Part shown: positions 2,074 to 27,232 of the stretch, piece by piece
Numbering within the stretch: position 1 is the first letter of the stretch
Layout: every line of letters starts with the position of its first letter
Assembly: GCA_022797115.1 (NCBI GenBank)
Contig: JAAWKB010000014.1
Span: 1-33,230 of the forward strand
Direction of reading: 5' to 3'
From: Oscillospiraceae bacterium
Lineage (GTDB): Bacteria; Bacillota; Clostridia; Oscillospirales; Oscillospiraceae
Length of the DNA: 33,230 nucleotides
The notes under the pieces: model-generated
What the model was told of the DNA's origin: nothing
Database searches by the model: none
The model's input: the letters and a program-made list of their open reading frames with translations, nothing else
Position numbers and translations under genes: made by a program

Positions 2074-3374
2074 AACCGCCTCATTTTGCAGATGTAAAAC
2101 CCGTCTGTCCCATGGCGCTGGGGCCACAGGCACATACTTCCGTCCGTCTCCCCCTCCAGGCCGGGCAGAGAGAACGGCTCCTTCTGAAACTCCCCATGGC
2201 AGGCGAGAAAACCGTCCGTAATCTCCCCATTCTCCTCTGGCAGGATCGTACAGGTGGCGTACAGCAAGACGCCGCCTGGCCGGACATAGCGGCTTGCATT
2301 GTCCAGAATCGCCCGCTGGACCGCAGGAAGCCCTGCCAATACCTGCGGGTCCTTGTAGCGGATATCCGGCTTCTTACGGATAATGCCCAGGCCCGAGCAT
2401 GGTACATCACAGAGCACCAGATCAAACCCATCGGCCCACTCCGCCCGCTCCTGCCGGCCATCGGCCAGCACAGGGCGGATACATTGCAGCCCCAGCCGCT
2501 CCGCCCCCTTCTCAATCAGCGCCAGCTTGTGCTGGTGGATATCACAGGCGATAATCTCGCCCTGGTCTTCCATCTCTATGGCCGCTGTAAAGGACTTCCC
2601 ACCCGGTGCAGCACATACGTCCAGCACCCGCCAGCCCGGCTTGGGTTCTGCGGCCAGCACAGCCGCCCTGGCGGCGGCGTCCTGCACCTGGAACAGCCCC
2701 TCCTGAAAGGCAGGCAGAGCTGCCAGATCCCCTCCGCCGGAGAGCAAATAGCACCCCGGCATCCAGCTGTGGGGCGTTATACTGGCGGTTTCCAGGCTCG
2801 CGGCCAGCTCTGCCGCCGTCCCCCGCAGGGGGTTGTGCTGGATGGTCGTGGGGACACTCTCGTTATCCAGGCGAAGGAACGCTTCCGCCTCATCCCTGCC
2901 CAGAAGCCCCACCAGACGCTCCACCAGCCATTGGGGATGGCTGTACTGGAGCGCCAGGCCCTCCAGCCCCGATGGGATGGCGGGCAGTCCACCTTTTTCC
3001 CGGCTCAGCCGCCGGAGGACCGCGTTGACCAACCCGGCAGCCCGTTTACGTTTCCCGCGCTTGACCGTCTCCACCGCCTCGTCTACGGCGGCGCTGTCCG
3101 GCACCCGGTCCATGTATAGAATCTGGTAAGCGCCCAGCCGCAGCACGTCCCGCACAAAGGGCTCCAGTTTGGCGAAGCTCTGATCGCAGCAGCTGTCCAG
3201 ATAGAAGTCCAACAAGGCCCGGTTCTGCAAAACCCCATAGGCCAGCCGGGCAGCCAAGGCCGCCTCCCGGCGGTCCAGGCCGCGGCTGGCGGCCTTCAGG
3301 CTGTTATCCGACCAGGTATCCAGCCGCCGGCAGGCAGTCAGGGCTTCCAATGCCGCCTCTCTTCCGCCTCCCAT
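2070..3374 (-). CDS. rsmB: 16S rRNA m5C967 methyltransferase RsmB
   Basis: SAM-dependent RNA cytosine-C5 methyltransferase (Sun/RsmB family). Residues 1-140 form the NusB-like RNA-binding domain (R-R-E-A-A-L-A-A-R-L-A-Y-G, then V-N-A-V-L-R-R). The C-terminal two thirds hold the methyltransferase: SAM loop V-C-A-A-P-G-G-K, motif IV D-V-P-C-S-G-L-G and the catalytic cysteine in Y-A-T-C-T-I-L-P-E-E-N. At 434 aa it is full length. The start ATG overlaps the stop of the upstream peptidase gene (TGATG), and the end overlaps rlmN by 4 nt, so translation of the three genes is probably coupled. Confidence 0.97.
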   Translation of the reverse strand: MGGGREAALEALTACRRLDTWSDNSLKAASRGLDRREAALAARLAYGVLQNRALLDFYLDSCCDQSFAKLEPFVRDVLRLGAYQILYMDRVPDSAAVDEAVETVKRGKRKRAAGLVNAVLRRLSREKGGLPAIPSGLEGLALQYSHPQWLVERLVGLLGRDEAEAFLRLDNESVPTTIQHNPLRGTAAELAASLETASITPHSWMPGCYLLSGGGDLAALPAFQEGLFQVQDAAARAAVLAAEPKPGWRVLDVCAAPGGKSFTAAIEMEDQGEIIACDIHQHKLALIEKGAERLGLQCIRPVLADGRQERAEWADGFDLVLCDVPCSGLGIIRKKPDIRYKDPQVLAGLPAVQRAILDNASRYVRPGGVLLYATCTILPEENGEITDGFLACHGEFQKEPFSLPGLEGETDGSMCLWPQRHGTDGFYICKMRRL

Positions 3375-4072
3375 CAGCGCCTCCTGTTGTCCCGGCCCGC
3401 AAAAATGAGCAGGTACCGCAGCAGCTGCAACAAGCTCATCAGCAAAGCGGCTACATAGGTCAGCGCAGCGGCGGTCAGGACCTTCTTGGCCCCCTTCCGC
3501 TCATCCCCATCCAGCAGGTTCGTGCCGTCAATCGTCCCCAGAGCTCTGGCGGATGCGTCAAACTCCACCGGGAGCGTCACCAGCTGGAACAGGCTGGTCA
3601 ATCCAAAGAGTACAATCCCAATGGCAAACACAGGCTGGGAGTAGAGCACCAGCCCCAGCATCAACGCCACAAAGGCAAACTTTGAGCCGAACTGCGTCAC
3701 CGGGATGATCGCGGAGCGGATGCGTACCGGCCCATAGCCCACGGCATATTGCACCGCATGGCCCGCTTCGTGGGCCGCTACGCCTACCGCCGCCACCGTG
3801 TCCGCGTTGTACACCGGCTCGGAGAGATAGATGGTGTTATCCCGCGGGTCATAATGGTCGGTCAGCTCCCCCCGGCAGGGCCGGATCGCCACATCATGGA
3901 CGCCATGGGCCCGGAGGACCTCATAGGCGGCCTGAGCTCCCGTCACCCCACGGCGGTTACGCTGGCGGCTGTAGTGGTTGAAGCTGGAGCTGACCTTAAT
4001 TTGTGCGTAAACCGAGAGGATCAGCACTGGGATCAGTATAATCCAGTAGATCGCGTCATAGTAAAAACGCAT
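3374..4072 (-). CDS. Membrane zinc metallopeptidase, YugP family
   Basis: Putative membrane-bound zinc protease (Zn_peptidase_2, YugP-like); its substrate is unknown. It has an N-terminal membrane helix (about residues 5-25, Y-W-I-I-L-I-P-V-L-I-L-S-V), the zinc motif H-E-A-G-H in A-A-H-E-A-G-H-A-V-Q-Y, and further hydrophobic helices around residues 130-165 and 205-225. Its 232 aa match the family. In clostridia it commonly sits between fmt and rsmB, as here. An AGGGGA about 8 nt ahead of the ATG supports the start. A hairpin with a U-tract lies 15-35 nt upstream, so this gene may be partly uncoupled from def-fmt. Confidence 0.92.
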   Translation of the reverse strand: MRFYYDAIYWIILIPVLILSVYAQIKVSSSFNHYSRQRNRRGVTGAQAAYEVLRAHGVHDVAIRPCRGELTDHYDPRDNTIYLSEPVYNADTVAAVGVAAHEAGHAVQYAVGYGPVRIRSAIIPVTQFGSKFAFVALMLGLVLYSQPVFAIGIVLFGLTSLFQLVTLPVEFDASARALGTIDGTNLLDGDERKGAKKVLTAAALTYVAALLMSLLQLLRYLLIFAGRDNRRR

Positions 4073-4086
4073 GATTCATTTCCCCT

Positions 4087-25136: not shown

Positions 25137-25736
25137 TTAGACGTGGGCCAGCAGCCAGTCCTTGAGCTCCTGCACGGACTGCGCACCGCCCCCCAGGCGG
25201 TGCTCCCCAAGGAATGCGGTGGGAACTACATGTACCTTCAAATCCTGCTTCGCGTGGCGGACAGCCTCCTGCTCCTCAGCCTCCCAGCGCCCGCTTTTCA
25301 GCGCCTCCTGGAACGCATCCGCATCCAGCCCCGCCTCGGCGGCAAGGGATACCAGCTCCTGCAAGCTGCCGATATCCCGCTCCTCCTCAAAATAGGCGCG
25401 GAAAATCCGATGGCAATAGGCTTCTTCCAGCTTCTGTTCCCTGGCGAAATAGAGGCCCTGGAAAGCCAGGCGGGTATATGGGCGGGGCACCACGTTGGGC
25501 GGCAGGCACATGTTCAAGCCGACCTTTTGGCACAGCGGCTCCAGCTCCTCGGCATAGCGTGCCCGGCGTTCCGGGTCATTGTAGGTATCTACCTGCGGCT
25601 TCGGCGGCTCGGTCAGCTCAAAGGGGAGGTATTCAATCTCAACATCTAATTCAGGACGCAGCTGGTCAATCATGGCTTCCAGAACGTAGCAGTAGGGGCA
25701 GACAAAGTCTGACGCAATTTTCAATTGGATGGACAT
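25137..25736 (-). CDS. DsbA-family (FrnE-like) dithiol oxidoreductase
   Basis: Cytoplasmic thioredoxin-fold protein with an inserted helical domain, 199 aa. The redox motif C13-P-Y-C16 follows I-A-S-D-F-V, and the cis-proline loop is V-V-P-T-A-F. No signal peptide is present. The FrnE branch typically handles thiol stress or acts as a disulfide isomerase/chaperone. It lies downstream of the bcp peroxiredoxin in the same direction, 130 bp away, so a shared role in thiol/peroxide defence is likely. It may have its own transcript, because a stem-loop lies between them. Confidence 0.9.
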   Translation of the reverse strand: MSIQLKIASDFVCPYCYVLEAMIDQLRPELDVEIEYLPFELTEPPKPQVDTYNDPERRARYAEELEPLCQKVGLNMCLPPNVVPRPYTRLAFQGLYFAREQKLEEAYCHRIFRAYFEEERDIGSLQELVSLAAEAGLDADAFQEALKSGRWEAEEQEAVRHAKQDLKVHVVPTAFLGEHRLGGGAQSVQELKDWLLAHV

Positions 25737-25866: not shown

Positions 25867-26325
25867 TCAGCTGCGCAGATAGTCCAACACCTCTGCCGCG
25901 TTGGTATCCGGCTTGACCTTGGGCATAACCTTTTCGATCATGCCCTCCTCATTGATGATATATGTGCTGCGCACCACGCCCATACTCACTTTCCCATACA
26001 GCTTTTTCTCCTGCCAGACGCCGTAGGCCTGGATAGCCGACAGCTCCGGGTCAGAGAGCAGTATAAAAGGCAGGCCGTGCTTGTCCGCAAATTTCTGATG
26101 GGATGCGGATGAGTCCTTGCTTATGCCAATGACTGCTGCATCCAGGCTTTTGAATTCCGCATAGGCTGCTGCAAATGCACATGCCTGCCGGGTACAGCCG
26201 GGTGTGTTGTCTCTGGGGTAGAAGTAGAGCACCACCTTCTTCCCCGCAAAGTCCGACAGGGATACCGGATTCCCGTCCTTATCCGGCAAAGTGAAGTCTG
26301 GGGCTTTGGTTCCAGCCTCTAACAT
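25867..26325 (-). CDS. bcp: Thiol peroxidase Bcp (PrxQ-type peroxiredoxin)
   Basis: Reduces hydrogen and organic peroxides; 152 aa. The peroxidatic cysteine is C44 in T-P-G-C-T-R-Q-A-C and the resolving cysteine C49 lies five residues later, the PrxQ/Bcp arrangement. F-Y-P-R-D-N-T is the usual lead-in. GGAGG precedes the ATG at 26323-26325; an in-frame ATG at 26382 lies in the promoter and is rejected. Transcribed away from the HTH-desulfoferrodoxin regulator, with 270 bp between starts. Confidence 0.95.
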
Positions 26326-26362
26326 GGTCAGGGGACCTCCTTTGGATTCATTTGGTTTTTTT

Positions 26363-26392
26363 AGTATATCATATCTCCCCATCCTTATTCAA
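26363..26392 (-). promoter_or_regulatory. Predicted promoter of bcp
   Basis: Minus strand TTGAAT (26387-26392), 18-nt spacer, TATACT (26363-26368). The -10 matches 5 of 6 and the -35 matches 4 of 6. It is about 38 bp before the bcp start. Confidence 0.6.
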
Positions 26393-26441: not shown

Positions 26442-26519
26442 ACGCTGGAAATATGGTATGCTGTGAGCGAGACATACAGCTGGGCCAGATGGAACCCCGT
26501 AAACTCTACGATTCGTGGA

Positions 26520-26548
26520 TTGTATTGCGGCAGTTTCCCGTGTATGAT
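26520..26548 (+). promoter_or_regulatory. Predicted promoter of the HTH regulator
   Basis: TTGTAT (26520-26525), 17-nt spacer, TATGAT (26543-26548). The -10 is good (5 of 6) and the -35 weak (3 of 6), which would suit a regulated promoter. Confidence 0.4.
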
Positions 26549-26595: not shown

Positions 26596-27180
26596 ATGGA
26601 CTGTGGTAAGGTAGGCGCGCTGATTTCACGCCTGCGGAAGGAACGCGGGCTGACCCAGCGGCAGCTGGCAGAGCGTCTTCTCATCAGCGACAAGGCTGTG
26701 AGCAAATGGGAATGCGGCATGGGATGCCCGGATATATCCCTGCTGGCCCAGCTGGCTGACGAGCTGGATGTGGAGCTGGCGGCGCTGTTGTCCGGTCAGC
26801 TGCCCTCCGGCGCTACGCCAGGAGGAAGTATGAAAAAAGCAAAATATTATGTCTGCCCCACCTGTGGGGGCATCGCATTCTCCACCGGCGAGGCCGAGCT
26901 GAGCTGCTGCGGCAGAAAGCTCTCCCCGCTGTCCGCCCAGAAAGCGGAGGAAGATGCGCGTTTGACAGTAGAGCGGGTGGACGACGAGTGGTTTGTCACC
27001 TCCACCCATCCGATGGAAAAGGAGCACCACATCGCCTTTGTCGCCTTGGCCCAGGGCGACCGGCTCCAGCTGATCCGGCAGTATCCGGAATGGGATCTGC
27101 AGGTGCGCATCCCCGCCAGGAGCCACGGGACCCTCTTGTGGTACTGCACCCAGCACGGCCTCTTCTATCAGCTGCTATAG
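26596..27180 (+). CDS. XRE-family regulator fused to a desulfoferrodoxin-like region
   Basis: 194 aa in three parts. Residues 6-66 are an XRE/Cro helix-turn-helix (L-T-Q-R-Q-L-A-E-R-L, then A-V-S-K-W-E). Residues 83-110 match the desulforedoxin Fe(Cys)4 site: Y-V-C87-P-T-C90-G and S-C104-C105-G. Residues 118-194 align with the superoxide reductase domain of desulfoferrodoxin: H138-P-M-E-K-E-H144 and C184-T-Q-H187-G-L keep two His, the Cys and the last His of the Fe(His)4Cys centre. The segment that should read E-K-H (catalytic Lys, first His ligand) reads E-D-A. So it probably senses superoxide, oxygen or iron through an Fe site rather than reducing superoxide. GGGAGGGAG precedes the ATG. Divergent from bcp, its likely target. 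Confidence 0.87.
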   Translation: MDCGKVGALISRLRKERGLTQRQLAERLLISDKAVSKWECGMGCPDISLLAQLADELDVELAALLSGQLPSGATPGGSMKKAKYYVCPTCGGIAFSTGEAELSCCGRKLSPLSAQKAEEDARLTVERVDDEWFVTSTHPMEKEHHIAFVALAQGDRLQLIRQYPEWDLQVRIPARSHGTLLWYCTQHGLFYQLL

Positions 27181-27232
27181 CGTGAGTGCGCCGGCATCCT
27201 TTTATGAAAGCCTGTAAGGAGGGCGTTTATCC

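Follow-up and report, generated by a model that had tools for sequence, protein, structure and literature searches.

HTH-desulforedoxin-superoxide reductase proteins of Clostridia as probable autogenous regulators with a conserved candidate operator

Introduction

Proteins in which an N-terminal HTH is followed by a desulforedoxin and a superoxide reductase (SOR) module were named as a class, HTH-Dx-SOR, in 2011, and the SORGOdb article assigns 19 proteins to it (PMC3116461). The protein described here has the domain order of that class, HTH then Dx then SOR. As the class is set out in SORGOdb, it is based on architecture and has a cysteine spacing of CXXCX15CC, whereas our protein has X13 and one of its five centre-II ligands is missing (PMC3116461).

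Two larger groups are also related. Desulfoferrodoxin, or 2Fe-superoxide reductase (PF06397 plus PF01880; structures 1dfx and 2ji2), is alike over residues 80-190, including the four cysteines of centre I and H138, H144, C184 and H187; our protein differs by having E-D-A in place of E-K-H, an extra HTH and a dfx_rbo score below the cut-off. With XRE/Cro-CI family regulators it has in common the HTH_3 domain and a dyad beside its own -35, but a former redox enzyme makes up its C-terminal half. OseR, a C. difficile repressor of detoxification genes that responds to O2, is described from an anaerobe within the same broad group and offers a functional parallel only; it belongs to the Spx/YusI family and was rejected as an HTH-Dx-SOR member (PMC11481553). 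TrtA was likewise rejected as a known member, being an XRE protein of 104 aa with no recognised C-terminal domain (PMC12724145).

Among open-licence PMC papers we found none that gives an operator, a target, a signal or centre-II erosion for HTH-Dx-SOR proteins. The architecture is known; the candidate operator, the linked targets and the erosion of centre II are new here, as far as that literature shows.

Results

The gene and its domains

The window, the whole stretch of 33,230 nucleotides that was analysed, comes from an Oscillospiraceae bacterium (GenBank assembly GCA_022797115.1, contig JAAWKB010000014.1). Its HTH-Dx-SOR gene spans 26596..27180 on the forward strand and encodes 194 amino acids, with an ATG start and an RBS-like gggaggg close upstream. 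A preliminary description, made from the letters of the window, had read this ORF as an HTH fused to a desulfoferrodoxin with an altered catalytic site, and the ORF, its length and its domains proved to be as stated. Both HTH_3 (48.4 bits against a cut-off of 23, residues 11-63) and Desulfoferrodox PF01880 (23.5 bits against 22.2, residues 136-190) exceed their Pfam cut-offs.

By Pfam and alignment, the XRE/HTH_3 DNA-binding domain occupies residues 1-70 (26596..26805, forward strand), N-terminal to the Dx-SOR module, and its S36-K37-W38-E39 is invariant among 64 aligned members. The desulforedoxin-like centre I covers residues 78-112 (26827..26931, forward strand) and has C87, C90, C104 and C105 in a CXXC-X13-CC arrangement; the Pfam model Desulfoferrod_N scored 14.1 bits, under its cut-off of 23, though the four cysteines are in place. 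Residues 113-194 (26932..27177, forward strand) form the superoxide-reductase-like domain, in which E119-D120-A121 replaces E-K-H and H138, H144, C184 and H187 are kept. The NCBIfam model dfx_rbo spans residues 81-190 with 31 bits, against an equivalog cut-off of 146.9. A second PF01880 match was absent from the window's genome, which is 75% complete.

When the protein was aligned with the solved desulfoferrodoxins 2ji2 and 1dfx, all eight of the cysteines and histidines that the preliminary description had listed fell on the canonical ligand columns. Comparison by hhalign with a profile of three canonical 2Fe-SORs (99.2%, E 2.4e-19, columns 80-190) matched the same columns. The alignment to 2ji2 and 1dfx sets E119-D120-A121 on E-K-H, as had been claimed, and hhalign opens a three-residue gap in this loop, so that the register is partly soft and is the least certain part of the alignment. 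It is supported at the E-K-H column because 34 of 93 family members, including the nearest relative with its E-D-H, show His at the A121 column.

Distribution of the family

HTH-Dx-SOR proteins were identified by matches at 1e-25: the draw from the window's family gave 41 among 150 genomes and the draw from its class 70 among 351, the window's own genome being counted in both. Two further genomes of the window's genus in the family draw had no match at that threshold. The fusion is therefore no one-off oddity, contrary to what the preliminary description had implied, being a class named in 2011 and present in this share of the class genomes sampled.

The first locus search yielded 71 loci in named genomes, among them three canonical SORs (L076-L078) that served as outgroup. 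It used peptide patterns of the window protein, and the resulting 93 aligned rows are biased towards the window's kin. Four fragments of fewer than 110 aa (L067, L070, L074, L075) and a locus identical to L026 (L081) were excluded before counting. Seven of the 93 rows (L060, L061, L064, L068, L069, L071, L072) are without an in-frame HTH, owing to an insertion, a broken reading frame or the end of a contig.

Centre I is invariant and centre II is repeatedly lost

Among the 93 distinct members, C87, C90, C104, C105 and H138 are each present in every row and form the set that never varies. The other centre-II ligands are less constant: H144 occurs in 79 rows, C184 in 77, H187 in 72 and the loop His in 34, and only 4 rows have Lys at the E-K-H column. 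All five ligands are found in 34 rows; 38, including the window protein, lack the loop His only; and 21 lack it together with one to three others. Another His in residues 116-126 is found in just 7 of the 59 rows that lack the loop His. The interval between C90 and C104 is 13 residues in 92 of 93 rows, versus 15 in the three canonical rows; the exception, L082, reads as 12 by regular expression because it has three consecutive cysteines there. This CXXC-X13-CC spacing of the family, against CXXC-X15-CC in the three canonical proteins, was not mentioned in the preliminary description.

With the ligand columns left out, a quick ML tree, 44 of whose 93 inner branches are weakly supported, required at least nine changes for the loop His, four for H144, five for C184 and seven for H187. 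An independent-pairs test of joint ligand loss gave no significant result, the pairs being too few. The nearest relative of the window protein, L008 (75% identity), reads E-D-H and keeps the His, and the next, L073 (74%), has lost it. Loss of the loop His in the window's branch thus looks recent, unless L008 has regained it.

In superoxide reductase, the E-K pair of the E-K-H loop is catalytic. The window protein has E119, its Lys is replaced by D120 and its loop His by A121, so the residues expected for canonical superoxide reduction are lost, as the preliminary description had it. Three His and one Cys remain at centre II, in place of the Fe(His)4(Cys) set of superoxide reductase. Such a site could still hold iron, and normal superoxide reductase activity would not be expected of it. 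In the 21 most eroded rows, Y163-P164-E165 is kept in all 21, and the stretch Y163-P164-E165-W166-D167-L168-Q169 and W182 are kept in 19-21.

A candidate operator abuts the predicted -35

Reading the upstream regions of HTH-Dx-SOR genes revealed a recurring sequence, CTCTACGGAGCGTnGATTG. Its counterpart in the window is the candidate operator CTCTACGATTCGTGGATTG (26504..26522, forward strand; 23.4 bits), in which a dyad, TCTACG-N3-CGTnGA, is followed by TTG. The window's genome (75% complete) has no other exact match than this site at the gene's own promoter. A predicted -35, TTGTAT (26520..26525, forward strand), directly abuts the dyad, and a predicted -10, TATGAT (26543..26548, forward strand), lies 17 bp past it; both draw on the sequence and the geometry of the family.

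Upstream regions numbered 95, two of which (L023, L069) were too short, leaving 93 testable. With a 19-bp matrix trained on those regions, 84 of the 93 scored above 10 bits; of the 20 shuffles per region in the control, one or more also passed that score for 2 of the 93. The rest of these loci (614 kb in total) contained eight sites above 11 bits. Two of them, in L041 (28.0 bits) and L065 (28.4 bits), are upstream of the gene at distances of 1.2 and 2.6 kb, and the six others reach at most 16.5 bits. Dyad pairing among the 84 sites was seen at positions 6/12 in 84, 5/13 in 78, 7/11 in 69, 3/15 in 57 and 4/14 in 25. The best -10 was found 17 bp past the -35 in 67 of 84 sites (ties went to 17), and at this fixed distance the mean match was 4.25 of 6 bases (83 sites), versus 1.55 at shifted offsets. 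The -35 keeps only TTG, its last three bases being little conserved.

Nine of the 93 regions lack a near site. Besides L041 and L065, they include L066, where the gene follows the 3' end of a VWA gene; L060, L061 and L064, where it is split by an insertion; and L051, L062 and L092, where the locus offers no explanation. In L041, a type I restriction specificity gene (2777-4085; Methylase_S, 159 bits) lies between the operator and the HTH-Dx-SOR gene, and may reflect either an insertion or a misassembled MAG.

The site occurs in 30 of 33 testable rows with all five ligands, 35 of 37 that lost only the loop His and 16 of 20 that lost more, so the ligand state matters little for the operator. A paralogous XRE protein in the window's own genome (L002, G000:C88; ~257 aa) has a hydrophobic, putatively membrane-like C-terminal half. 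About 60-80 bp upstream of its gene is a related site, CTCTACCGCTGGTCGGTTG (11.7 bits), and the CTAC half-site may therefore be common to this HTH group.

Genome-wide occurrence of the operator

The exact pattern TCTACGNNNCGTNGRTTG occurred at 10 sites in the 150 family genomes, against one for the reversed-pattern control. Eight directly precede HTH-Dx-SOR genes, one (G034) is 81 bases from a contig end and one (G082) precedes a CAT-like gene. A second exact pattern, CTCTACGGAGCGTNNNTTG, gave eight sites in 391 class genomes and none in the control; six precede HTH-Dx-SOR genes, one a CAT-like gene (G515) and one a DUF2087 gene (G332). Both scans together place 14 of 18 exact sites directly before HTH-Dx-SOR genes. 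Patterns this strict overlook most HTH-Dx-SOR genomes, and allowing one mismatch was noisy (49 sites versus 23 control matches in 50 chosen genomes). The site before the DUF2087 gene (L123 in G332) is near consensus, at 31.0 bits, and is a single case of this gene as a target.

In a later set of 25 loci, a site precedes the gene by 63-68 bp in 17 (two of these, in G388 and G493, were already among the class-genome exact sites), and three have one on the same strand at 440-780 bp (L183, L198, L200). Five have no same-strand site. Three of them (L194, L195, L203) end MoxR/VWA operons that carry the operator at their start; for L193 and L204 the locus gives no explanation.

Genes linked to the operator

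The CAT-like genes belong to a subfamily that matches PF00302 (207 bits); two members scored 220 and 197 bits with the model for type A chloramphenicol acetyltransferase, whose cut-off is 270 bits. We sought this CatA-like subfamily, defined by at least 45% identity, in both genome draws. It occurs together with HTH-Dx-SOR in 10 genomes of the two draws, and the two are linked in all 10. The CAT gene lies downstream on the same strand in five, with a gap of less than 50 bp in G014, G303 and G327 and of about 330-380 bp in G238 and G444. The other five have an operator of their own before the CAT gene: G308 (30.3 bits), G391 (29.1), G082 (26.6), G044 (26.5) and G039 (21.2), the last having the variant CTCAACGG at both its promoters. 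Three added cases were found via the regulator or the operator, namely L012 and L039, with the CAT gene directly downstream, and G515 (32.1 bits). Two genomes with the subfamily and without HTH-Dx-SOR (G449, G229) have no operator.

In the class draw, 6 of 8 genomes with the CatA-like subfamily had HTH-Dx-SOR, versus none of the 13 whose CATs were all remote (Fisher p 5e-4, relatedness ignored); in the family draw it was present in 4 of 4 versus 5 of 13 with remote CATs. The subfamily was found in few HTH-Dx-SOR genomes, 4 of 41 in the family draw and 6 of 70 in the class draw. Two of the CAT-linked genomes, G014 and G082, have a regulator gene that an insertion has split. Remote CAT homologues (at most 40% identity) were rejected as part of the regulon: none of 14 loci had a site at the promoter, and in a second set none of 17 had a site above 10 bits. 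In one remote locus, L150, a 13.1-bit match lies on the other strand, away from the promoter.

A second linked gene encodes what we label a MoxR-type ATPase (AAA_5 in Pfam, 45.8 bits), found at 1e-60 in 4 of 351 class genomes. Every one of the four has HTH-Dx-SOR (p 0.0015, uncorrected), an upstream site (28.4, 21.0, 21.0 and 13.6 bits) and a VWA gene akin to the one in L065. HTH-Dx-SOR comes after the VWA gene in G190, G280 and G337, and the Sedimentibacter locus L065 has the same order. A 20.6-bit site also precedes a related ATPase gene in G132 (L165). The window's genome (75% complete) has no CAT match at 1e-30 and no MoxR-type match at 1e-60; given this, and an exact site at its own promoter only, the local regulon may be the gene itself.

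Discussion

The domain order, the ligand states, the operator, the promoter geometry and the linkage with two other gene types are features of the sequences, and the reading of them that we favour, with a probability of roughly 0.6, is a one-component HTH-Dx-SOR autoregulator that uses the TCTACG-N3-CGTnGA operator and senses most likely via its Cys4 centre. The XRE domain would bind as a dimer to this conserved site just upstream of the -35 TTG, and the protein would control its own promoter. Judged by sequence, the window gene product is probably an autogenous transcription factor, with control of its own gene likely. The preliminary description had proposed a DNA-binding regulator, and this is very probably right, given the conserved candidate operator at the gene's own promoter and the linked targets elsewhere. 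Since in some relatives the same operator also precedes the CatA-like acetyltransferase gene and the MoxR-type ATPase/VWA operon, the family may regulate a small set of genes.

Under the autoregulator reading, a shift in the oxidation or metal occupancy of the invariant Cys4 (desulforedoxin) centre would alter the paired domains and with them DNA binding; the four cysteines would also be compatible with structural zinc. The superoxide-reductase half would persist as a domain no longer needed as an enzyme, with Lys nearly always gone, the loop His lost repeatedly and other centre-II ligands also lost in some lineages. Judged from the -35, the start site is predicted about 43 bp downstream of the operator centre, a distance that suits a repressor or an activator alike. 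Lambda CI activates at PRM by touching sigma, and either an activator of that kind or a repressor that blocks the -35 would fit a dyad beside a -35 that keeps only TTG. More tentatively, and as something possible rather than probable, we propose a clostridial transcription factor family in which a former superoxide reductase senses via its rubredoxin-type Fe(Cys)4 electron-entry centre, its catalytic iron decays stepwise, and it governs itself and, by lineage, CatA-like or MoxR/VWA genes via TCTACG-N3-CGTnGA.

The preliminary description had placed the sensor at the remaining centre-II iron. A residual 3-His-1-Cys iron would there bind superoxide, oxygen or NO without turnover and switch DNA binding, which would agree with the invariance of H138 and with the joint retention of H138, H144, C184 and H187 in the window protein and the 37 other rows that lack the loop His only. 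We consider this unlikely, and the data do not support it: the 21 members that have lost the loop His and one to three more ligands keep the domain, and those testable have the operator in 16 of 20 cases, three of the four others being genes split by insertion. Such loss is not expected of a general sensor, and because loss of the catalytic centre is recurrent, centre II is unlikely to serve the family in that role; it may do so in particular lineages. The complete centre II of 34 members could instead mean that the proteins are still mainly enzymes, slow superoxide reductases whose HTH merely autoregulates their supply. Active SORs without the Lys are known, namely the Nanoarchaeum and Ignicoccus proteins; autoregulation is the commonest use of the operator, and the window's genome has no second PF01880 match. 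This is nevertheless improbable, because the window protein lacks both the loop His and the Lys, 59 of 93 members lack that His and just 7 of these have an alternative nearby, and operator-linked genes extend beyond the regulator itself.

The conserved non-ligand residues of the eroded rows (the Y163-Q169 stretch and W182) suggest another role for the Dx-SOR half, that of a metal-stabilised domain, with zinc in the Cys4 site, which would bind a xenobiotic or metabolite that the CatA-like target modifies. The CAT family does act on small molecules, and four cysteines alone cannot tell iron from zinc. However, in most HTH-Dx-SOR genomes no CatA-like member was found, and the domain descends from a redox enzyme, and we hold this to be rather doubtful.

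With an operator that can be read from sequence and members at every stage of loss of the catalytic iron, the family is a testable system, in which promoters of one type could be tested with proteins retaining five, four or fewer centre-II ligands. Should Fe(Cys)4 be the switch, roughly a fifth of the class genomes sampled would encode a kind of iron-based DNA-binding sensor that, to our knowledge, is usually absent from lists of the Fe-S cluster, haem and PerR/Fur types.

Genomic neighbourhood and insertions

ORF clustering of 100 loci plus the window identified no widely shared neighbour gene among the top 45 clusters. The tsaD cluster was beside the gene only in the window, L008 and L073. 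In the window, a 52-bp gap (27181-27232) separates the gene from tsaD, which has the same orientation, and inspection by eye showed no obvious terminator. On the other side is a divergent bcp-type peroxiredoxin gene (25867-26382, reverse strand; AhpC-TSA, 150 bits), adjoined by a gene for a DSBA-family protein (25137-25736). As a conserved partner bcp was rejected: apart from the window copies, a close match was found only in L101 (78%, partial, some 1.3 kb beyond the gene there), and a weak match (28%) lies beside the canonical SOR of L078. Redox genes adjoin the window's regulator but are not conserved as neighbours.

Six HTH-Dx-SOR genes (L060, L061, L064, L069, L176 in G082 and L178 in G014) are interrupted at identical codons, W38-E39. 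Ahead of the C-terminal half, five of the six share the junction AACAATATCTTTAA(C/T)TAAGG, and L060 has a variant. An ORF of serine-recombinase type (Pfam Recombinase, Zn_ribbon_recom, DUF4368) ends beside the split in L060 and G082, and the HTH-Dx-SOR gene seems to be an attachment site of a mobile element. In G082 the two gene halves are about 61 kb apart on one contig, and the HTH half retains an operator-like site.
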